In this document: positions 1 through 59,879 of the stretch, one piece after another | Layout of the letters: each line of letters begins with the position of its first letter | Position numbering within the stretch: the stretch's first letter is position 1 | Source of the DNA: Lumbricus terrestris | Lineage: Eukaryota > Annelida > Clitellata > Crassiclitellata > Lumbricidae | Assembly: GCA_949752735.1 (NCBI GenBank) | Contig: OX457050.1 | Span: forward strand, 41,564,784-41,628,783 | Direction of reading: 5' to 3' | Length of the DNA: 64,000 nt | Made by a program: the position numbers and the translations under genes | Notes under the pieces: model-generated | Databases searched by the model: none | Seen by the model: the letters and a program-made list of their open reading frames with translations, nothing else | What the model was told of the DNA's origin: nothing

Positions 1-231
1 ATGGTGTTGGATTGATGAAATATAATTCTCATTTTAAATAGAAGTTGGATTGATAGCAAAAAGTTATTGTTGAACTAGAAGCTTGATTGATTAAATGAAT
101 TCTCGCCTAAATGTCAGCAGTTAAGATTGATGTTGAATGTGCTACGCAGTGGGTTTGCAAACGTTTAATTTAAAAAATTATTATTATTATTATTATTGTT
201 GTTGTCCGATGTATTTTCCACTTGTATTCAT
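1..231. repeat. degenerate dispersed monomers and short (TTA)n tract
   Basis: AT-rich sequence with weak copies of the gaagttggattgatgaaa motif that recurs through the window, and a short TTA tract near 180-196. I see no gene. Confidence 0.4.
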
Positions 232-350
232 TCATTTCAGACATTTATATAGCACCTCTTCAGAGTACCTACTCAGAAGCGCTCCCGAACCAACCACAGT
301 AACAGTCTTAAGAGCAGAGTTGAACGTATTCTCAAAGGCTTTAGGCATTA
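232..350 (-). mobile_element. LINE 3' end fragment (left piece of a split copy)
   Basis: Read on the minus strand this is the end of a CR1/jockey-like LINE: the last codons, then the family 3' tail (gggagcgc..ctgagta followed by gctatataaatg). The same tail occurs near 13030, 18000 and 21100. The preceding part of the LINE C-terminus lies at 10323-10478 in the same orientation, so the DNA transposon between them inserted into this LINE. Confidence 0.6.
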
Positions 351-374
351 CCCAAGCAGCACGCAAACGTTTTT

Positions 375-3300
375 TCAACGTTTATTTTTAGTTGGGAACG
401 TTGAATAATGGTTTACGTTACATTACAAACGTCCTGATAACGTTTTAGAAACGTTACTAGGAAAACGGTTATGTTACAAACGTTTCCCTATCGTTCAGAC
501 AACGTTTGCGCAAAATTTTACTTGACTTCACACAGGATTTATTTGCACCCAAATTGGCCGCGTTTTGTTTTATATAAATGCAGTTACGTTTAAGCAAACA
601 CCCTACTGACATAAAATCAATTTATTTTAGCACGGTGTAGCAAACGTTTCGGTAACGTTTCAGCAACGTTTGAACAAAATATCACTCTAGCTAATTTGAC
701 AACTTCCGTTTTCGAAACGTTTTAGGAACGTTTTCATATAACGTTCGACTGCAAACGTTTTTCTAATGTTCCAGAAACGCTTCGCTATAATATTAGTCTA
801 TTTTCCATAAAGACGGATCGTTTCAGAGAATATCAACTGCGTCTTATACCAGTTGACTCCAAAATAGTTCGTTTATAGAATCCCCGTCAATATTAATGCA
901 ATTTTCAGTGTATAAAACCTTCAGACGTTTTCAAAACGTTTTGGGAACGTTTTCATACAACGTTCAGTTGCAAACGTTGTTCTAATGTTCTAGTAACGTT
1001 TCGCTATAATATTAGTCTATTCTCTATAAAGAGGAGTCGTTTCAGAGAATATCAACTGCGTACGCGTCTTATACCAGTTGGATCTAAAACAGTTCGTTTA
1101 TAGGATCCCTGTCAATATTAATGCATTTTTTAGTGTATTAAATCTTGAGACGTTTTCGAAACGTTTTGGGAACGTTTTCATACAACGTTCGGCTGCAAAC
1201 GTTATTCTAATGTTCCAGAAACGTTTCGCTATAATATTAGTCTATTCTAAATAAAGAGGAGTCGTTTCAGGGAATATCAAGTGCGTCTTACGCCAGTTGA
1301 ATCCAAAATAGTTCGTTTATAGAATCCTCGTCAATATTAATGCAATTATTAGTGTATAAAACTTTCACACGTTATCAAAACGTTTTGGGAACGTTTTCAT
1401 ACAACGATCGGCTGCAAACGTTATTCCAATGTTCCAGAAACGTTTCGCTTTAATATAAGTCTATCTTCCATAAAGTGGATCCCACTTGTTTCAGACAATT
1501 TCCCTCTCGTCTTATACCAGTTGCATCCAAACTGGTTCTTTTATAGAATTCCCGTTAATATTAATGCAATTTTTAGTGTATTAAATCTTCAGACGTTTTT
1601 GAAACGTTTTGGGAACGTTTCCGGAACGTTTTCATACAACGATCGGCTGCAAACGTTATTCTAATGTTCAAGAAGCAGAAACGTTTCGCTTTAATATAAG
1701 TCTATCTTCCATAAAGAGTAATCGTTTCAGACTATTTCAACTGCGTCTTATACCAGTTGAATCCAAACTAGTTCTTTGATAGAATTCCCGTTAATATTAA
1801 TGCAATTTTTAGTGTATTAAATCTTGAGACGTTTTTGAAACGCTTTGGGAACGTTTTCATACAACGTTCGGCTGCAAACGTTATTCTAATGTTCCAGAAA
1901 CGTTTCGCTTTAATATAGGTCTATCTTCCATAAAGTGGGATCGTTTCAGACAATTTCACTTGCGTCTTATACCAGTTGAATCCAAAATTTGATCTTTTAT
2001 AGAATCCGTTTACATTAATGCAATTTTTAGTGTATTAAATCTTCAGACGTTTTCGAAACGTTTTGGGAACGTTTTCATACAACGTCCGGCTGCAAACGTT
2101 ATTCCAATGTTCCAGAAACGTTTTGCTATTCTTTTGGTCTATTTTCCTTAAAGAGATCGTTTCAGACAATATCAACTGCGTCTTATACCAGTTGAACCCC
2201 AAATAGTTCGTTTACAGAATCCCCGTTAAGAGGCCTATTAATGCAAATGTTAGTTTATAAAATCTTCAGACGTTTTGGGAACGTTTTCATACCTCGTTCG
2301 GCTGCAAACGTTATTCCACTGTTCCAGAAACGTTTCGCTTTGATATAAGTCTATCTTCCATAAAGAGTAATCGTTTCAGACAATTTCAACTGCGTCTTAT
2401 ACCAGTTGAATCCAAACTAGTTCTTTTGTAGGATTGCCGTTAATATTAATGCAATTTTTAAGTGTATTAAATCTTCAGACGTTTTTGAAACGTTTTGGGA
2501 ACGTTTTCATACAACGTTCGGCTGCAAACATTATTCTAATGTTCCAGAAACGTTTTGCTATTCTTTTGGTCTATTTTCCTCAAAGAGATCGTTTCAGACA
2601 ATATCAACTGCGTCTTATACCAGTTGAATCCCAAATAGTTCGTTTACAGAATCCCCGTTAATAGGCCTATTAATGCAAATGTTAGTTTATAAAATCTTCA
2701 GACGTTTTGGGAACGTTTTCATACAACGTTCGGCTGCAGACGTTGTTCTAATGTTCCAGAAACGTTTCGCTTTAATATAAGTCTATCTTCCATAGAGAGG
2801 AATCGTTTCAGACAATTTCAACTGCGTCTTATACCAGTTGAATCCAAAATAGTTCTTTGGCAGGATTGCCCTTAATATTAATGCATTTTTAAGTGTATTA
2901 AATCTTGAGACGTTTTCGAAACGTTTTGGGAACGTTTTCATACAACGTTCGGATGTAAACGTTTTTCTAATGTTCCAGAAACGTTTCGCTTTAACATAGG
3001 TCTATTTTTCATAAAGAGGGATCGTTTCAGACAATATTAACTGCCTCTTATACCAGTTGAATCCAAAATAGTTCGTTTAAGACATTATCAACTGCGTCTT
3101 ATACCAGTTGAATCCAAAATAGTTCGTTTATAGAATTCCCGTTAATATTAATGCAATTTTAGTGTATAAAATCTTCAGACGTTTTCGAAACGTTTTGGGA
3201 ACGTTACGTTCGGATGTAAACGTTATTCCAATGTTCCATAAACCTTTCGCTTTAATATAAGTCTATCTTCCAATAAGAGGGATCGTTTCAGACAATTTCA

Positions 3301-3430
3301 GCTGCGTCTTATACCAGTTGAATCCAAAATAGTTCGTTTATAGAATCCCTGTCAATATTAATTAGGACAATTTTTAGTGTAAAAACCGTCAAACGGTTTC
3401 GAAACGTTTTGTGAACGTTTTCATGCAACA
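375..3430 (+). repeat. tandem array, ~210-230 bp unit, about 12 copies
   Basis: The block acgttttcataca.cgttcggctgcaaacg recurs near 732, 948, 1171, 1391, 1630, 1853, 2072, 2281, 2504, 2716, 2933 and 3190. Each unit also contains a ctgcgtcttataccagttga block and a gttaatattaatgcaa block. Units differ by substitutions and small indels. Two units (near 2230 and 2662) carry an extra GGCCTA inside the gttaatattaatg block. Confidence 0.85.
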
Positions 3431-3808: not shown

Positions 3809-5293
3809 CAACTTCTCTTATCTGGTAATCTTTCGGACTGTTCGCAGTGTTAACTCTAGAAACTAGTAAAAACTTTCTTCCTAGCCTATAATTTGTCAGA
3901 AAGCAAGATTTTAGTCTAATTTTAATTTCATTTCTCGTGTAATATGTTGTGTTATGTCAATTTAATTGTCTTGCATAAACGAAATATAGCCTTCTCGGTA
4001 AAAGAGCATTTGCCCCGACGTTTTGCTCTGGCTTGTCCTATTAAGCTTATAGCCTACACACCCTGGCTGTCTACGTTTCCAACTCACCACCCTCTTAATT
4101 CCTGATCATTTTGTTTCGATTAAGCGAATGTAACTTCGCTTTTTGTAGGCTACGTACAAATTTTGAGTTGACGATTGCGATTAGTCTATTTACTTACTTA
4201 CTTACTTAATTACTGCAAGTCCCTGGTTCAAACCACTACACAGTGACCTGGAATACCGGTGCTTTGTTCTGATTGGTTGAAACGAAAATGTATAGCACAG
4301 ACAGGTGCGCTGTGACCGTTGCGGCCTTCATGGCTGGTTTAAACCAGTTTCTTTGTCTTGCAAGGTTGTTGAACTCGGGCACGTGTTGACGATGAATTCG
4401 CCGAAGTTAGAAAATTACAGAATCTCATCAAATTCTCGTGTGCGTCAATGTATTCGGCAAATCGAGGCAAGGAAAACGAAGTGAAATTCATGCTTTAATA
4501 TGCGAGTTAACCCATTCTTGAGATATAAACTGATCATTGTGAAACTTTGCTGTTAGCGTGCCATGAATGTTCTAGTTGAAAATTCCGTGATCTATAGTTT
4601 AGACTCGCTAAATTTTTCGCTCAATGTAGCGTTGTTTTTTACCAATACCACTTCTATTTAGATAACCATTAATTATTTTCATCAGTCCAACTGAAAATTT
4701 ATGATTTTTAATCATTCCCACTTTTGCCTAAGTAATATTAGTTTAATCATTTCAAGTCTTAGCAAGAATCCTTTTCGTCAATCCAATTTGTAGTCGACTA
4801 ACGCTAAAAGCCATGTAATAGTTAGTAATTTAGAACGGTCAAAACAATGGTTTTATACTACTGAAAATCCGAAACTGTTATGAAAAATTACTAAATTTAT
4901 TCACGTTTTTTGCTGTGTTATATTAAGGCCTTAAGAGAATACAGTAAATGTAGGCCTAAATCATTTAAGTTTTGGGGTTAGAGTTTTTGAAAATTTGTAC
5001 GAGTTATTATATTTTATATTCGATGTTTCAGCTTGTTGACTTTAACACAAAATCTGGATTTTGGCACGAACCATTGATTTTTGAGACATTTGCCGTGGAA
5101 CCATAATAATTATTATGATGGTGACAATATTGAAATTCTAGTTCATAATGCTCATGCTGGTAATGCCCATGATTACAATGCGTGTAATGATTATGACAAC
5201 TTATTACGATATTGGTTTTGATGTAGGCCTAAATGATGACTGCGTTGTTGATGGTTACGATAAAATTTTGCTTTTGTACTGTGAAATTTTGTA

Positions 5294-19618: not shown

Positions 19619-19999
19619 CGATCATTTGTGAAATTAAATATTTGATTGTAGAGCAGGCCTACAACCACTCCCAGTCCCAGGTACAACTTACAAAAGAGGT
19701 TTTAGTTGCTAGACGGCTGTTATTGCATAGGCCTAAATGCCGCCTAATGATCGAATTTATGCAATAATTGTTAGCATACGTTATTTAGGCCCTATAGGCC
19801 TACGGAATCCGGATGTCTCTAAACTGTGTTCCGCGCAATCGAAGGTTGGCGAGAGGATACCTGGCGGGGGATCTCAGTATAGGCCTTTAGGCCTAATATT
19901 TATTTTATTGAACAATCCTGTTGACCGGCCGCAACCGATTACAGTGTATATATAGGCGCTCCCAGCCCAACCACTGTGATGAATAACTCGTTAGGCCTA

Positions 20000-20600
20000 C
20001 AGCATAATTATTTTAAATCAATCCAACTTAATTGTAGTTTGGCCAGAATCCTTCTCATCGATCTAGCATCTGCTTATAGGCAAGAATTCATCCAATTAAT
20101 CCCGCTTCTAGACCTATTTAGGCACCGATTAGGCTATTTTCATCAAAACCAATTGTATTTAATTACAAATAATTATTGTTCGTCAATCCAGCTTCGATTT
20201 CAACGAGATCGTTTTCATAAATCCCACTTCGATTTCACTAAAAGTTATTTTCGTCAATCAGACTTCTGTAGGCTACAATATATTGTTTTATTTTTTATAG
20301 TTTTAAAATTTGATAATTTTTCCGATTTGTCATTTCATAATAGCCTATAGTGATTTAAATTATTTAATGACAACTTAATTATTTATCTATGATCGATAGG
20401 CCTATATGACTACAAAAAGCATAGGCGTAGGGCCCTAGGCTATAATTAGGCTACCCTATTCTTCAGTCGTCCGACTTCTACTTTTGTAGCCTATAAATGA
20501 ATGAATCCAGTTTCCATTTATGCAAGAATTCCTTTTAATCAATTCAGCTTCTAGTTGAAAAACAATTCCTTTTTATCAATCTGACTTCTATTTTTCTGCT
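20000..20600. repeat. degenerate array of ~33-36-bp monomers
   Basis: Repeated aatcca(a/g)cttctattt..agcaagaattcttttcatc units near 20020, 20060, 20100, 20180, 20220, 20265, 20480, 20545 and 20580. They are the same monomers that build the arms of the foldback elements. Confidence 0.65.
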
Positions 20601-21185: not shown

Positions 21186-21506
21186 GTTTAGCGCCGCAAC
21201 TTATTCACCATTTAATCATTCGACCACGTCCACTTGTATTCGACAAACGCTGCAACGCATGCAATGGTGAATAATGTACGACGATAAGCTACTGTAATAG
21301 GCCTACGTTTACCACTGTTAGGCCTACTACTATTATTTATATATTATTATTAATTTTTACCATTTTGAGTCCTTGCTATTGAACGTGAAGCACAAAGATA
21401 ATAAGATTGTATGTGCACTCTTCATAAACACGAAAGAAGAAGCAAATAAACACGTGTTTATTTATAGAACAAATTGCAATTTTCCATTCTATTTTTAGCA
21501 ACAAAA

Positions 21507-29794: not shown

Positions 29795-30698
29795 CTAAAA
29801 TAGAAAAGTCATTAAAAATAAATTTAAAACTCCTTCAATTCGGTCAGTAAATGATTTTCCTGGTTCTTTTTAGTACACATTATAATACCGTAGGCCTACT
29901 CCTTAAATTCAGTCTGCAAATTCCTTCTGCTCACTGTGTTATTCACAAACTTGCAAACATAATAAAATTATAGTAGAGACCAGCAGTGTATCAGCTCAGT
30001 GTTTAATACCGGTGTTTCAATGAGCAGCACAACACTTAGGACTATGGTTTACATACTGGGTTATCAGCCCTGAGAAAGGAGATTAAATCCTTAAATAAAT
30101 ACTTATAAATAAATACTACACAAAAAGATCTATTAAGATTTCTGTTCCTACATCATCCAATAAACAACCGCGACACACAATCCAGGGGACGTCGTCATCC
30201 CCCGAACTGATGTGAGGCTGTCGGTGGTTGATGTCATCGATGTTCCAGGGAGTGCGTCTGACCACCGACTGCAGGGCCGAAGCAACAATGAACGTGGCCC
30301 CCTCCAAACATTATGTCCGGGGCGGCGGGCCCCTTGCCATGCAGAAACTGGTAGGCCTACACGCGGTATACGTAATTATGTGAGTGCTTATTTATTGTAA
30401 GTAATTTCGTTTCATAAATATTAGGAAGTTATAAATCTGATATTATTAGACTCTATGAACTTTTCTAGAATAATTGTCATAAAAGTGTCTTGATCCAGTG
30501 CTGCTTATTTAAAAATCCCTGGCATTTTCAGCGGCCAAATTTTGGCTCTTAGATCCCCTACACTGCAGAAATTGGAATTCGGTATTTATATTTATGCAAT
30601 AAAAAATATAAAATTATAATGGGGTTCATATTATAAACAGCCCACATAGAGTTAGTGTACATGTATTCCGTACTTACTGCTGCTGAGGTCTTTCTAGC

Positions 30699-31104: not shown

Positions 31105-31756
31105 CTTTCTAGCAGTGCTTTCCAATACGGATTGTGAAACAGCACCAATAAATGTCACTTATCTATAGCTAGGCCTACACTTTACATTTTTGCAACTTTC
31201 GAGGGCCCATTTTTTGTGGGCAGAGCTGAAAGTATTTTGGAAAAGTTGCCGGGTGTGTCTTTCGCGAGATTTTTTACTGAGTGTCGCCGAAAATTTACAT
31301 CTTTTGCAGGCCAAAAATGTGGACGACTTTTTAGTCATCCGACCGAAATGTCGATGAAAAGTCCTTTTTTCTCTGCCAAAAAAGTTGATGACCTTTTTAT
31401 GAAAAAGTCCTTTTTCTCTGCCTAAAAAGTTGATGACTTTTTTAGTCTGATTTATGTTAAACAAGCGACCCGGAACAGATCCGGCAACAGCGGGTCTCGA
31501 AACTCGATATGTATTACACTGGGCATGTTCCTTGCACTCATTGCATGTAGGCTACAGGCTGCCCAGATTATGCTGGCCCTTTTATCATTTTTCCATTGTA
31601 CAAATGGAACTTCGTGCACGTTTCTCGCATAACTGAATTTCTCATGAATAGCTGGAAAGCACTAAAAGGACTGTACACATTTCGACTCGCATATCGGGTT
31701 GGACCAGGTGCATGCATTGTGCATCACGTTTTCTGCCCTTAGTCGTCCAGAAGTCT

Positions 31757-33320
31757 CCTTTACGGGAGGCGAATTCGTAGAACATACATGGATACGGGTC
31801 AAAGGCTTTGACGACCCAATAGGAAAGGAGTTATAAATAGCGTGACCTGATTTGTAACTTTCGTACGTGAGTAAGTAAATAAAATTATATTCTAATAATA
31901 AACCAATAATAATTGTATTTCACAAGGTAGTAGCCTATTCCCAAACAGCCTTATTAAATGCAATATTATTGGTTTAGAAAAATTATTTTCCAGTGTCTCA
32001 AATTTTAATTAAATGGACTCGAACGGAGCGCGTTTAGAATTTCAGTAATTTGTCCTAATGATTATTCAAGTAGCGTGAAATAAAAATACGCGCTGCGAAG
32101 AAGGTTCATTATAGGCCTAATCGATGGCCAGACGAAGTGCACTAGCGTGCGCGGCATAGGATCAGAGGTTGCCCCTAAGATATTCAAAAGTCGTACATTT
32201 GCCAGTGGGCGAGATTGGGCGGTGTCACGACAACTGGCTCACAGACAACTGGCTCAGCGACAACTGGTCCACCGACAGCTGATTCACGGACAGCTGGTTC
32301 ACCGAAAAATGGTTCACGACCAAATTTTGACTGCTTTTTTACGCCATGGTTATTGCCGCTAAAAGAGAAGTTGGATTGATGAAAATAACTCGTGATAAAT
32401 CGAAAGCAGGTTGCTTATGGCCTCGCTGAAAAAATAGACCGAGGAAAAGAGCGTTTCCTGAATGAAGTTGCATTGATGAAAATAATGCTTGTAAAAATTG
32501 AAGATGAACACACGAAACAATCGCGTTGCTAAATAGAAGCTGGATTGATGAAAATAACGCTTGAGAAATGGAGGCAGGACTAATGATAAAAGTAATGAGT
32601 AATTGAAGCTGGAATAAGATATTTTTATGCCTTCAATGGAATTATGGAAGCTGGATGAAGATATATTTATATCTGAAATAGAAGATGGATCGATGAAAAA
32701 TGCTTTATTGATAGACACTTGATAAAATAAAGCTGGATAAACGGCTTTCCAGCTGAAATAGAAGCTGGATGCATGTTGAAATGCATGCATGAATATCAAC
32801 AGTCCAGTTTCCATTTATCAAGCGTTATATTCGTCAATCCAGCTTCTATTTCACCTATAAAGAATCTTCATCCAGCTTCCATTTTCGAAACGTCTTTTTT
32901 ATTAATCCAGCTTCCACTTCACATATAAAATATCTTAATTCAGCTTCCACTTCTCAGTTTTATCATTACGCAGATCAAACAATACCTGAATTGATTTCAT
33001 TACTCAAGCGAATTTTCAATAATCCAGCTTCCACTTCACTTATAAAATATCTTAAACCGGCTTCCATTTTAGATATAAAAACACCTTAATCCAGCTTCCA
33101 TTTTAGATATAAAAACACCTTAATCCAGCTTCCATTTCAGATATAAAAATACCTTAATCTAGCTTCCCTATTAGATATAAAAATACCTTAATCCAGCTTC
33201 CAATTCAGAAAAAATACCCTAATCCAGTTTCTATTTTAGATATAAAAATACCTTAATCCAGCATCCATTTCAGATATAAAAATAACTTAATCCAGCTTCC
33301 ATTTTAGATATAAAAATATT
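31757..33320. mobile_element. GGCGAATTCG foldback copy (left arm and monomer arms)
   Basis: The left part (GGCGAATTCGTAGAACATAC.. through ..gcataggatcagaggttg) is the same as 53573-53908. After an inserted stretch at about 32168-32360, which includes a GGTGTCACGACAACTGG end, the monomer arms follow. Orientation flips near 32775 (ggatgcatgttgaaatgcatgcatgaat), then ccagcttccattttagatat units repeat every 33-35 bp to 33320. The right terminus is missing. Confidence 0.75.
32221..32335 (+). repeat. GGTGTCACGACAACTGG terminus with 17-18-bp subterminal repeats
   Basis: Six imperfect repeats (acgacaactggctcac.., accgacagctgattcac..) directly after the GGTGTCACG end. The opposite end is not found in this copy. 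Confidence 0.75.
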
Positions 33321-38749: not shown

Positions 38750-39436
38750 TAATTACGACAGTATAACTATTTTCAACGAAAATCTAATCGCCGTTCACAT
38801 GAAAAAGACCAAGTTGTTCTATAACAAGCCTATATATCTATGAATGTGCATATTAGACTTGAGTAAGACTTTAATGTACGATTTCCACTATAAGTAATTG
38901 ATTACATTAAGACCAAGTACGGGGATAGGACTAAGCTATTATTCACCGATACGGATTCATTGGCGTACAAAATAAAGACCAGCGATTTTTACGCCGATAT
39001 AGCTGACGATGTTCGAAGCCGGTTCGATACGAGCGAGTACCCGAAAGATAATCCTTCTGGTATAGAAACGGGTGTAAATAAGAAAGTGATCGGTATGTTC
39101 AAGGACGAGGCAGCAAGTAAACAAATTGAAGAATTCGTGGGTTTGCGATCGAAATTGTAGGCCTACTCGTACAGGATGTCCGGTGGAGACTATAAGAAAT
39201 GTAAAGGTGTGAAGAAGAACGTCGTTAAGAAAACGATAAGCCAGGACGATTATAAAGACTGCGTGTTTACGAAAAGAAAACAGTCGAGAGCAATGAATGT
39301 TATTCGATCGTACCATCACGACCTTTACACCGAAGAAGTAAATAAAGTCGCGCTGTCCGCCGACGACGATAAACGAGTGATAATGGAAGATGGTATACAT
39401 ACATTAGCATACGGCCACTACTCGCTTCGTCAATAA
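38750..39436 (+). pseudogene. Maverick/Polinton protein-primed DNA polymerase B, C-terminal part
   Basis: Family-B DNA polymerase that copies the linear Polinton genome from a protein primer. The visible part starts upstream of the finger/palm (a segment with AVHMKKTK), then includes motif C as TDTDS (about 38955-38970) and runs to the normal C-terminus. It is broken by a stop near 38839, a frameshift near 38895, and an in-frame TAG at 39158-39160 that comes from a 6-bp TAGGCC insertion. The N-terminal exonuclease half is absent, replaced by the LTR-like block. The next gene starts 21 bp after the stop, as expected for compact Polintons. Confidence 0.85.
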
Positions 39437-39457
39437 AAGTATTAGCCGAATATTAAA

Positions 39458-39901
39458 ATGAGTTTTGAGACATACAAAGAAATAAATGTAGGGAGCGCTG
39501 TAGGCCTACTACCTAATATTCCTCCATCCAACGTACAGTTGATCGATGCTTAGAAAAAACTAAATATCAAGAACTTCAGAGGTGTGTTTCATCGAGACGA
39601 GTTGCCGAAAAGACCGGCAGCAAACGAGTGTGGTATTCTAAACCTAGATGACTCGAACGGTAGAGGAACTCATTGGACAACTTGGAATAAGAATCACCAA
39701 CAGAAATGTTACTTTGATAGCTACGGTCTCCCTCCGCCAACCAAGCTCATAAAATATTTACAGAGCCCTGTGTACCACAATAGTGAACGAATACAACCCG
39801 ACAACGAAGTCTTTTGCGGACATTTATGCTTGTAGGCCTACCTGCTGAAGTCCATAACTGACGGTTTTAAATTTCAAAATGTCATAAATAGTTTGCATTG
39901 A
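39458..39901 (+). pseudogene. Polinton adenain-like cysteine protease
   Basis: Related to the adenovirus maturation protease, which processes capsid proteins in Polintons. The ATG at 39458 lies just after the polymerase stop. Catalytic landmarks are visible: His in GRGTHWTTW (near 39668) and Cys in the FCGH box (near 39810). The frame has a TAG at 39551 and a second TAG made by a TAGGCCTA insertion at 39833. An insertion of the same octamer at 39501 keeps the frame and adds two residues. The stop at 39899-39901 marks the original end. Length (about 145 codons) is close to a full Polinton protease. Confidence 0.85.
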
Positions 39902-40438
39902 GCGATTTTTTTAAATTGTATAATAAAATGCCTGTTAACATATTTGGACAAATGGATATACGGTCTCCCTCCGCTAACCGAGCTCATAAAGTATTTACAG
40001 AGCCCTGTGTACTACAATAGTGAACAAATAGGCTACAACCCGACAACGAAGTCTTTTGCGGACATTTATGCTTGTAGGCCTACCTGCTGAAGTCCATAAC
40101 TGACGGTTTTAAATTTCAAAATGTCATAAATAGTTTGCATTGAGCGATTTTTTTAAATTGTATAATAAAATGCCTGTTAACATATTTGGACAAATGGATA
40201 TATGGTCTCCCTCCGCTAACCGAGCTCATAAAGTATTTACAGAGCCCTGTGTACTACAATAGTGAACAAATAGGCTACAACCCGACAACGAAGTCTTTTG
40301 CGGACATTTATGCTTGTACCTGCTGAAGTCCATAACTGACGGTTATAAATTTGAAAATGTCATAAATAGTTTGCATTGAGCGATTTTGTTAAATTGTATA
40401 ATAAAATGTCTGTTAACATATTTGGACAAATGGATAAC
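39724..40438 (+). repeat. three tandem copies, 237-242 bp (protease end to fibre start)
   Basis: The segment from cggtctccctccg to aaatggata starts at 39724, 39961 and 40203. Copy 2 has the 5' half of copy 3 (ccgctaaccgag, TAGGCTA present) and the 3' half of copy 1 (TAGGCCTA present, atgcctgtt). Confidence 0.9.
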
Positions 40439-40916
40439 CGAACAACGCCACGAGTAACAGCAGGAGGCGTTACATTTTCTCAAGTAAATAATACTTTTCT
40501 AAGACGAGATGGAGCGAACGCGGCGACTGCAAATATCAATTTGGGTTTTAAAAAGCTGATTAATGTAGCAGATCCTACCGATCTTCAAGATGCCGCTACT
40601 AAGAATTACGTCGATGCTAATAAACTTTCAAAGAGTGGTGATACCGTGAGTGGTGATTTTTTATTTCGTCTTCTTCCGATCCGGATGTGAATAGGAACCT
40701 GGGATATGCTGATATTCGAGAAGGACAACGTTTTCATTTACTTCTCGGCACTGTTGGAAATAGGATTACTTTAGCCAATTTCAACAAAAAATCCTGTATT
40801 GTTCCAAACGACCCATGGATTACGTATAGGCCTAGGCCTACGAGTAGATGATCAAGACGCTATCGATTTCCGTAAGACCGCCGAAGATCCCATTGCAAGA
40901 ATAAATGTGTTTAAAG
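40406..40916 (+). pseudogene. Polinton fibre-like protein, N-terminal part
   Basis: The ATG at 40406 in the third tandem copy opens a frame whose product has the repeat pattern of viral fibre shafts: an asparagine/aspartate-rich segment with GFKKLINVADPTDLQDAATK, followed by a KSGDTVSG element typical of phage and Polinton tail-fibre shafts. A frameshift near 40672 breaks it. A 12-bp double hexamer (TAGGCCTAGGCCTA at 40827-40840) is in frame. It is interrupted at 40916 by a hAT element. The downstream parts are at 42107-42198 and 46892-47355. Expected role: attachment or surface spike of the virion-like particle. Confidence 0.75.
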
Positions 40917-42106
40917 TAGGGTGACCATTTTCTGGCCATCAAAAACTTGGACACTTTTTGAAAAATATCAATTGTACGTAGGCCTAATTCCTTAACCACA
41001 GGTCCACAGGCTTACGATCGAAGGCCTAGTCTTATAGGCTCAATTAAATTTAATGCTGAACATAGATTTCAGTGTAGAAATCTACAACGTGCTCCTGTCG
41101 TCAGTGCACGTAGGGACGGATACAGAAATTTTCGAAGGGGACGGGCAAAATTTCCGGTCTTGGACAGGGGAAAAATATCGTCTTGGTCACCGAACAAAAA
41201 TATGATGACCTTTTTGAGTCATTTATCGAATTCCCAAAAAATACCATTTCCCCGCAAAAATAATTGATGACGCTTGGTTTTTTAGTCGTACTGTGTTCTT
41301 ATAAACCCCTGTACGGACCTCGTGGGGCGTGGGGAGGGCCTGCGAAACTACTCATAGCAGAAGGCACGTCAACTTTCCGAGCCAGAATAGCTGGCCAAAT
41401 GGGGTAATGGCCGGATTTGCTCTCCCTGGATCCGCCCCTGCTCATTTGTAATAGAGGACCATCTCTCAATTGGTGCCCAGTGGGTATGCCTATAATCTAG
41501 TCCAGACGAAGATTTAATGTTTCTGGAGCACACAAGAGCGTCCGGTGGACGATCGCCGATCTTGAACAGGGCCGTGCAGTGAAACGGGGTTTGGGTAGAG
41601 AATGTGTCTCTGATCATCCAAATTTTTGTGTGAATTTTCACATTACACTGACAGCAATTTAAGTTCTTGAATGAAATTGGTCTATTTCAGTGCTAGCATG
41701 AGCGGTCGAACGACCATTAGGACCCTAGCGCGACCAACCGGTCGATATAGTTCTTGAGCCGCTATTTAAATCTTAGATCTTTAGGCCTATTATAAAATCT
41801 TTCTCGTTACTCCTTGATAGTTCTTTGAATTTTTCAACTGAACTCACTAGCCTACTAAGGATGTAGGCCTAATATAATAAATACTCCATATAAATTGACA
41901 ATTTCTCTTTCGTTACGACTTTTTAAGTTTATAAACTACACTTTGTTTTGTTGTGGTTTACATAAAAATGACGTTTTCGATATTCAAATTTCCTTCTTGC
42001 CAACAACCGGGACAATTTGGCCTTTTTCCGTAAGTCTTCGGGACACCGGGACGCACCACGAAAAACCGGGACATGTCCCGGAAAACCGGGACGTATGGTC
42101 ACCCTA
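40917..42106. mobile_element. hAT element (Tip100/Zaphod-like ends) in the fibre gene
   Basis: Ends TAGGGTGACCAT and ATGGTCACCCTA with the perfect 8-bp duplication GTTTAAAG (40909-40916, 42107-42114). Repeats of ccgggaca/tcccgg lie just inside the right end, as in Tip100/Zaphod-type hATs. No transposase. Removing one duplication copy would leave the fibre frame continuous. The inside contains fragments of other repeats (41100-41440, ending ctggatccgcccctg, itself a hAT-like terminus). Confidence 0.92.
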
Positions 42107-52104: not shown

Positions 52105-52440
52105 ACTAATGTAATGTAATGTAATTAGTAACTTCTATAGTGCCGCTCGCAACCAAGGCCATTCAGTAGCGCTCCCAGTGCGATAACCCCTAGAGAAAAA
52201 AATAGGTCTTAAGAAGAGAGAGAGATGTAGATAACGATCCTGAAAGTAGAGTCCCACGCAGAGTGGAGGGAAGAGAATTCCACAAAGAGGGCCCAATGAT
52301 GGTGAAGGATCGAGTTTGAGCAATAGGCCTAGTGGTCCTAGCTCGTGGAACAAACAAGTCAGCCCTGTCCAGAGAGCGGAGTGGTCGATGAGAAGATGCT
52401 GATAGAGGAGAACGAATGAGATCACTGAGATAGACTACAT
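52105..52440 (-). pseudogene. LINE 3' end (C-terminus and (ATTAC)n tail)
   Basis: The minus strand encodes SFTIIGPSLWNSLPSTLRG and SLLKTYFFSRG, the LINE C-terminus, then a 3' tail ending ttacattacattac. The same type of tail ends the SINE at 44339. Confidence 0.65.
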
Positions 52441-53511: not shown

Positions 53512-54082
53512 GGCGCGGCTTATCAAGATAAGCCGGTGTCACGAGATATTCTATCCCCTTTAAAGCTATCCGGGAGGCGAATTCGTAGAACATACATGGA
53601 TACGAGTACAAGGCTTTGATTACCCAATAGGGAAGCGAGTTATAAATGGCGTGACCTGATTTGTGACCTGATTTGTACGTGAGTAAGTAAATATTCTTAT
53701 TAAATTGGATTAGAAATATTATTTTTCAGTGTCTCAAATTTTGATTAAATGGATACGAAAGGAGCGCGTTTAGAAATTTTAGTAATTAGTCGTAATGATT
53801 ATTCAAGTAACGTGAAATAAAAATACGCGCTGCGAAGAAGGTTCATTGTAGGCCTAATCGATGGCCAGACGAAGTGCACTAGCGTGCGCGGCATAGGATC
53901 AGAGGTTGAAGTTGCATTGATGAAAATAACTCGTGATTAATCGAAAACAGGTTGCTGATGGCCTCGCTGCAAAAATAGACCGAGGAAAAGAGCGTTTCCT
54001 CAATGAAGTTGCATTGATGAAATTAATGCTTATAAAAATTGAAGATGGACACACGAAACAATCGCGTTGCAGAATAGAAACT

Positions 54083-57915: not shown

Positions 57916-58261
57916 CGATTAAACGCTCTTTTCATAGGTCTTTTTTGCAGCGGCCATCACCAACCTGTTTTCGATTTAGAATTAATTACTAAAATTCTAA
58001 ATGCGCTCCGTTCTTATCCATTTCATCAAAATTTGCGCCACTGAAATATAATAATATTACTAAACCAGGTATTTTTGTGAATACTACCTTGTGAAATATG
58101 ATTATATTTATCAGAATTATCAGAATATATTTACTTACTCGCGAACGAAAGTTACAAATCAGGCCACGCTATTTATAACTCGCTTTCCTATTGGGTCGTC
58201 GGAGCCTTGGACTCGTATCCATGTATGTTCTACGAATTCGCTATCGGGACGTTTGTGATAT

Positions 58262-58333: not shown

Positions 58334-58470
58334 TGGGTGTTAATAGTTTACCATAAACAAATAGGCCTACATTTAGAGATCGCATGCCTCTCCGTCTTAA
58401 TTGCTATGGTTTTTTTTCTCATATGTCGCGGCTGCAGGCTATACTGACGTCTCGCCAGAGGGTTTGGTGC

Positions 58471-59839: not shown

Positions 59840-59879
59840 TATAACCGATCGTTTCACATAGGCCTAATATGTAGATAAC

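Follow-up and report, generated by a model that had tools for sequence, protein, structure and literature searches.

Short insertions at TA in the genome of Lumbricus terrestris, probable excision scars of a TA-target transposon

In the genome of Lumbricus terrestris, the octamer TAGGCCTA and the heptamers TAGGCTA and TAGCCTA are probably germline excision scars of a Tc1/mariner-like cut-and-paste transposon that would target TA and carry TIRs starting with GGC (or GG). Alignments of related copies place these sequences at TA dinucleotides as derived insertions, and the two ends of the inserts are coupled. A preliminary description of the 64,000-nt stretch of DNA analysed here (the window) had suggested footprints left by a transposon that duplicates TA and has GG..CC ends, and this stays the best reading. 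That description was right about insertion at TA, gain and the GG..CC footprints but overlooked the GGTC/GACC and CATG classes and the absence of donors.

Abundance of the octamer

The window contains exactly 27 copies of TAGGCCTA, the number that had been estimated by eye against about one expected, and 200 first-order Markov simulations of the window gave a mean of 0.66 copies and a maximum of 3. The sites named beforehand are real, but some had been placed off by 1–5 bases (the correct starts are 4951, 5224, 19992, 21298, 32112 and 58362). The following window sites, like all features listed below, carry no strand; the first fourteen are given as positions only.

4951..4958, TAGGCCTA
5224..5231, TAGGCCTA
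19728..19735, TAGGCCTA
19795..19802, TAGGCCTA
19888..19895, TAGGCCTA
19992..19999, TAGGCCTA
20397..20404, TAGGCCTA
21298..21305, TAGGCCTA
21319..21326, TAGGCCTA
29891..29898, TAGGCCTA
30352..30359, TAGGCCTA
31170..31177, TAGGCCTA
58362..58369, TAGGCCTA
59859..59866, TAGGCCTA
32112..32119, TAGGCCTA, flanks and octamer near-identical to those at 53849
53849..53856, TAGGCCTA, flanks and octamer near-identical to those at 32112

Because of their near-identical flanks, the last two sites share the octamer by copying.

Genome-wide counts against controls, which had been proposed as a check, bear out the excess. In the assembly (1.056 Gb, 331 contigs), TAGGCCTA occurs 354,398 times, as opposed to 8,418 occurrences of the same pattern read backwards, and the combined count of the 5-bp forms, TAGGCTA plus TAGCCTA, is 460,350, as opposed to 85,208; these reversed patterns keep the base composition but not the dinucleotides. 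With the controls subtracted, the 8-bp and 5-bp forms amount to ~0.7 million sites, most of which are not singly shown as insertions. A 244-kb sample contained 87 copies of TAGGCCTA against a first-order expectation of 2.2 (39-fold), and the count per 10-kb stretch ranged from 0 to 9 among 18 stretches taken at round coordinates. A second octamer class, TACATGTA, is represented by 139,349 copies genome-wide against 48,612 for its control, a count to which TACA microsatellites may contribute. No description of TAGGCCTA, TACATGTA or GGCCTA scars of this kind was found among the titles and abstract openings listed in a literature search.

Sequences that differ from TAGGCCTA by one base are mostly near chance, with the exception of TAGACCTA/TAGGTCTA (28 as opposed to about 6), the only strong one-base neighbour in a 265-kb sample. 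The latter pair was also found as private inserts (in loci L042, L029 and L045), so it is partly a product in its own right and decay is not its sole source, which suggests a GA-tipped relative.

Empty and filled sites in the window

In alignments of paralogues the empty site reads TA and the filled site reads TA+GGCC+TA or TA+GGC/GCC+TA. For window positions 39000–40916 five related loci were listed, four of which were compared (L042, L060, L061 and L062). By its first labelling and by eye, this region is a putative Polinton whose frames would encode a polymerase and a protease. The informative sites in the window are as follows.

39158..39165, TAGGCCTA, 6 bp absent in 4/4 related loci compared; an in-frame TAG ends the polymerase-like frame (by eye)
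39501..39508, TAGGCCTA, 6-bp gap in L042 and L060; L061 and L062 diverged and uninformative
39833..39840, TAGGCCTA in tandem copy 1, an in-frame TAG ends the protease-like frame (by eye); copy 3 empty at 40314
40029..40035, TAGGCTA in tandem copy 2, 5-bp insert absent in copy 1 (near 39792) and in 4/4 related loci compared
40075..40082, TAGGCCTA in tandem copy 2, evidence as for 39833
40271..40277, TAGGCTA in tandem copy 3, 5-bp insert, evidence as for 40029
40827..40840, TAGGCCTAGGCCTA, two hexamers, frame kept; L042 and L062 lack the 12 bp and read GTATAC
2662..2669, TAGGCCTA in the ~220-bp array, one filled unit (2657), four units empty
52324..52331, TAGGCCTA, absent in a 94% identical paralogue in L017
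31931..31937, TAGCCTA, 5-bp insert absent in a 77% identical paralogue near 57976

The pair of tandem copies described earlier is exact, with TTGTACCTG at 40314 standing against TTGTAGGCCTACCTG at 39830 and 40072; among the related loci, L060 is empty at site 39833, L042 lacks the 6 bp and has TC in place of TA, and L061 and L062 are diverged. The contrast of TAGGCTA with TA noticed at 40029 and 40271 likewise stands, and inserted TAG codons do end two frames, one at 39158 and the other at 39833. The two tandem hexamers at 40827, which lie outside the coverage of L060 and L061, had been called frame-neutral and are, reading R-P-R-P. As to the array, the difference between empty and filled units stands, but the empty site had been put at 2435 instead of 2439: its sequence, GTTAATATTAATG, is found at 1554, 1790, 2439 and 3141. 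The three tandem 242-bp copies (39722–40436) carry GGCC only, both inserts and GGC only, a pattern that would be most simply read as recombination of two haplotypes differing at both scar sites. Locus L042, for its part, carries inserts at TA that the window lacks: GGTC near 39193, TAGCCTA near 40739 and, beside other changes, two CATG-like ones (near 39334 and near 39566).

Private insertions in a dispersed repeat

A dispersed repeat of ~1.08 kb occupies window positions 40911–41990, and the window copy was aligned with 32 others (n=33), drawn from at least 49 matches, mostly of this repeat, after scoring of 40 of 5,176 candidates. By a strict test, 14 of the 24 private 5–7-bp insertions in these 33 copies have the form TA-X-TA, as opposed to 3 each for the next-best dinucleotides, AC and CT. 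The cores X were GGCC and GGC (three each), GCC (two), and GGTC, GTC, GGCCC, CCG, CCCGG and CAGCC (one each), the CAGCC insert being compatible with four other dinucleotides too. Five more insertions can be read by eye as TA-X-TA past a neighbouring substitution (GGCC twice, GACC, GCC and CATG), and the remaining five comprise two mutated shared octamers and three ordinary insertions. Altogether, 15 private insertions have GG-like cores. At least two TA sites of the repeat carry different inserts in different copies. Four further sites are shared among copies.

40979..40986, TAGGCCTA, intact in 21/33 copies, substituted in 12, precisely empty in 0
41782..41789, TAGGCCTA in 16/33 copies, TAGCCTA instead in 9
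41848..41854, TAGCCTA, common to 24/33 copies
41864..41871, TAGGCCTA, 13/33 filled, 2 filled but substituted, 18 without

Since no copy is precisely empty at the old site 40979, precise loss is not seen there; together with the many inserts private to one copy, this upholds, for the copies compared, the earlier view that gain, not loss, is the direction of change.

Recent activity and rate

For one site in a repeat with a DDE_3 frame, a genome pattern with exact flanks returned five copies, four of them empty and one with GGCC between duplicated TA. The filled copy, L067, is 99.3% identical to the empty copy L063 over about 2.07 kb, gap columns counted; for the three remaining empty copies, identity to L063 is 99.1–99.6% over the aligned stretches. 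The insert places a TAG inside the DDE_3-type transposase frame of L067. In the 1.08-kb repeat, 502 singleton substitutions stand against the 15 private GG-class inserts (two of which are shared by near-identical pairs), a ratio of about 3 per 100 that describes one repeat family and not the genome.

A large young repeat that has both a TGTA microsatellite and a DDE_3-type frame is represented by L063 (positions 1–3327), L076 and L077 and by C5, C13, C17, C1, C6 and C82. A 149-bp piece of it is found in 8 places with 100% identity, and 28 more places hold a 51-bp sequence related to part of this piece.

Resident elements and the search for a donor

Donors were sought through inverted repeats beside TA and through shared ends with different flanks, which returned CA-tipped elements, satellites, nested repeats and the scars themselves. 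No GG-tipped TA element was recognised in the approximately 0.34 Mb examined (roughly 0.27 Mb of it not chosen by similarity), and the TA-flanked element with GGC(C)...(G)GCC ends that the preliminary description had proposed to look for did not turn up there either. Ten GG-tipped 12-bp inverted pairs were present in the same ~0.34 Mb, none convincing as a standalone element, and the 33 copies of the 1.08-kb repeat, with their 15 private GG-class scars, contain no GG-tipped element. Applied to 0.265 Mb, the rule of three allows, by our estimate, some 12,000 donors that carry such repeats and are no longer than 4 kb, against roughly 0.7 million sites.

CA-tipped TA elements, in contrast, are resident. 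They include four of the five DDE_3 loci read at element scale, namely L069 (with an open frame of 378 aa), L070 (its inverted ends about 0.58 kb long), L071 (with imperfect ends) and L073, but not L072, and a complete CA-tipped element lies at about 1538–2936 of L020; all five elements with readable ends start with CA. No clear ends were seen at the DDE_3 loci L072 and L063–L068. Because this complete element and further CA-tipped ends were found in the same sample from which GG-tipped elements are absent, the absence is a real tension for the excision model, in which donors could stay scarce if excision went on steadily at a modest rate. Profile matches in the genome number at least 147 for DDE_3 (150 of 2,198 candidates scored), 129 for DDE_1 and 16 for mariner. 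L070 and L078 represent a Tc1-like element whose ~0.58-kb inverted ends start TA-CAGTGG.

The rejected donor candidates comprise an inverted pair of another repeat (L011, 4348), a 149-bp stretch (L063, 2712) whose 3' flank stays identical in the three copies compared and which is therefore the interior of a larger young repeat, the long inserts of L043, L044, L045 and L046, in which the TA-GG..CC-TA structure was not seen, and a pogo-like locus of C11, where the two stretches read lacked inverted ends. A short perfect palindrome is present at L021, 1311.

The same sequence rules would hold under hit-and-run or abortive integration, in which a GG-tipped TA transposase that is low-copy, extrachromosomal or lost would join its ends to TA and the element would be removed at once, leaving the tips behind. 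Such a process would agree with the 33 repeat copies, which show 15 GG-class scars but no element, and with the lack of a recognised GG donor in ~0.34 Mb; we consider it quite unlikely, as few elements could likewise remain after a long period of ordinary excision, intermediates were not seen, and copies with large inserts may be missed when 40 of 5,176 candidates are scored. It is doubtful, though conceivable, that a GG-tipped TA transposase scatters tips in the germline without resident elements, perhaps from an extrachromosomal source, which would constitute a mutation process that runs, in the one family analysed, at ~3% of the number of substitutions and is invisible to transposon annotation.

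Core composition and coupling of the ends

Every TA-XX-YY-TA core was scored in 265 kb (L001–L026 minus L002, plus the window). GG was joined with CC in 100 cores (2.1 expected) and CA with TG in 36 (5.5 expected), GG/GA mixtures numbered 28 (5.8 expected), and GG/CA hybrids were at the chance level, 6 against 6.0. Hybrids are also below the reversed control genome-wide (22,110 vs 37,852, both strands), and six-nt GGNNCC cores (TAGGNNCCTA) are not enriched (10,853 vs 10,510). The lack of hybrid enrichment suggests that both ends of an insert come from one source, and this coupling disfavours the templated micro-insertion that had been offered as an alternative. Mild enrichment of a few further cores, such as ACC/GGT (45 vs 26.5 in the 265 kb), counts against the excision model. 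The duplicated unit is TA, usually with a purine before it. The same flank preference, with more G and less C at −1 and less G at −2, marks the GGCC and the GGC/GCC class, whereas the CATG class shows less C at −3 (36 sites, TACA microsatellites included).

The absence of a hybrid excess also argues against breaks at TA followed by independent addition of nucleotides to each 3' end, in the manner of a terminal transferase or telomerase, and then joining. G-rich additions to both 3' ends would give GG..CC, and GG/GA mixtures do occur, but independent ends would by our calculation predict about 109 GG/CA hybrids in the 265 kb, and the large excess of TAGGTGTA/TACACCTA that should follow is contradicted by the counts. 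The low hybrid number genome-wide, the unenriched six-nt cores and the different flank preferences of the classes point the same way, and independent addition, rejected by the hybrid test, is very improbable.

Programmed somatic removal, by which the assembly would show somatic scars while the germline retains the elements, would account for the missing donors, but the octamer at the old site 40979 is substituted in 12/33 copies, which shows that scars of this kind, at least, are inherited rather than formed anew in every animal, and we regard this explanation too as very improbable. Least credible is enrichment of TAGGCCTA by selection or as a host motif (a binding or methylation site) with no insertion process, which would suit a palindromic and very abundant octamer but is contradicted by the 6-bp and 5-bp gaps at TA between empty and filled copies, and disfavoured by one-base neighbours that, TAGACCTA/TAGGTCTA excepted, are mostly near chance and by inserts that place TAG in open frames.

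Proposed mechanism and comparison with known systems

Under the excision model, the element would insert at TA and duplicate it, the transposase would then excise the element so that its last 2–3 bases stay as 3' overhangs on both flanks, and the flanks would be fused by end joining. GGC overhangs paired in register, with a central G:G mismatch, would yield TA-G(G/C)C-TA, and a one-base slip onto the perfect GC match would yield TA-GGCC-TA; GGCGCC would be formed only if both ends were filled in, and an excess of six-nt cores was not seen. Alternatively, a 2-nt tip minus one base could give the three products but would also predict TAGCTA (58 events vs 45 expected in the 265 kb). The TACATGTA class would fit a 2-nt CA tip. 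The 3-nt form is strong in the GG class, in which the 4-nt GGCC is about equally common, and nearly absent from the CA class (TACAGTA/TACTGTA, 37 vs 33 in the 265 kb), so a different overhang length would be needed there. The inserts GGCCC, CAGCC and CCCGG speak against the model, as they are not simple products of its rule. The TA target, the derived insertions, the product spectrum, the coupled ends and the flank preference common to the 3- and 4-nt classes are observed; the transposon itself, its overhang length and the end-joining route are inferred. The GG and CA classes would agree with scarring by more than one TA-specific transposase, each enzyme having tips of its own.

The footprint of Tc1 in C. 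elegans is TACATGTA, the same octamer as the second class here, where CA-tipped elements are resident; it differs from the GG class in tip and in flank preference. The inserts of L. terrestris lie at a duplicated TA and have 2–4-nt cores (a few of 5 nt) that appear to derive from both tips and are coupled, as in Tc1/mariner footprints, but a resident donor with matching tips and a TA duplication was seen only for the CA class in the ~0.34 Mb. It had been stated that no described mechanism fits, yet 2- or 3-nt 3' overhangs are described in Tc1/mariner excision, whose repair leaves the scar C(A/T)GTA in Sleeping Beauty (PMC3878927), and a length of 2–4 bp is given for Tc1/mariner scars (PMC7913693). 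The C(A/T)GTA scars of Sleeping Beauty and Frog Prince likewise have a duplicated TA target and a short core from both tips, and the central ambiguity is alike, G(G/C)C here and C(A/T)G in Sleeping Beauty (PMC3878927). The differences from these two systems are that the tip is GG(C) and not CA, that the 4-nt GGCC and the 3-nt form are about equally frequent, and that there are hundreds of thousands of sites with no donor found in ~0.34 Mb. In the PHIS superfamily (PIF/Harbinger, ISL2EU, Pangu), the tips of Pangu are usually AG or GG, and the target duplications given are TWA, AT, ANT, CWG or TNA (PMC4482050); GG tips would thus be common to both, but the duplicated unit here is TA.

The inserts follow the sequence rules of TA-transposon scars, and it is likely that the process works like Tc1/mariner excision. 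Membership of the GG class in Tc1/mariner is not claimed, because the defining donor was sought and not found in the part of the genome read. What is new is the GG(C) tip, the scale (~0.7 million sites above control), the recent activity, the rate of ~3 per 100 in one family and the fact that no donors are visible. The sequence-tagged scars, hundreds of thousands in number, would document much more transposition than is evident from the resident elements, and the amount of unseen cut-and-paste activity would become directly testable. By putting TAG into open frames (39158, 39833 and the transposase copy of L067), the process is a source of loss-of-function mutations. A GG-tipped TA element, if it exists, would have an unusual tip for a TA target; the absence of any such element would imply a new process of insertion.

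Other insertions

In five copies of the 1.08-kb repeat (L030, L034, L038, L046 and L048), 4-bp CATG/TGCA insertions adjoin CA or TG, converting CA to CATGCA and TG to TGCATG; these perhaps represent another class of scar or of slippage. Two further inserts, of 215 bp in L043 and 204 bp in L046, have CAGGGC-like inverted ends and apparent 8–9-bp duplications and look hAT-like.
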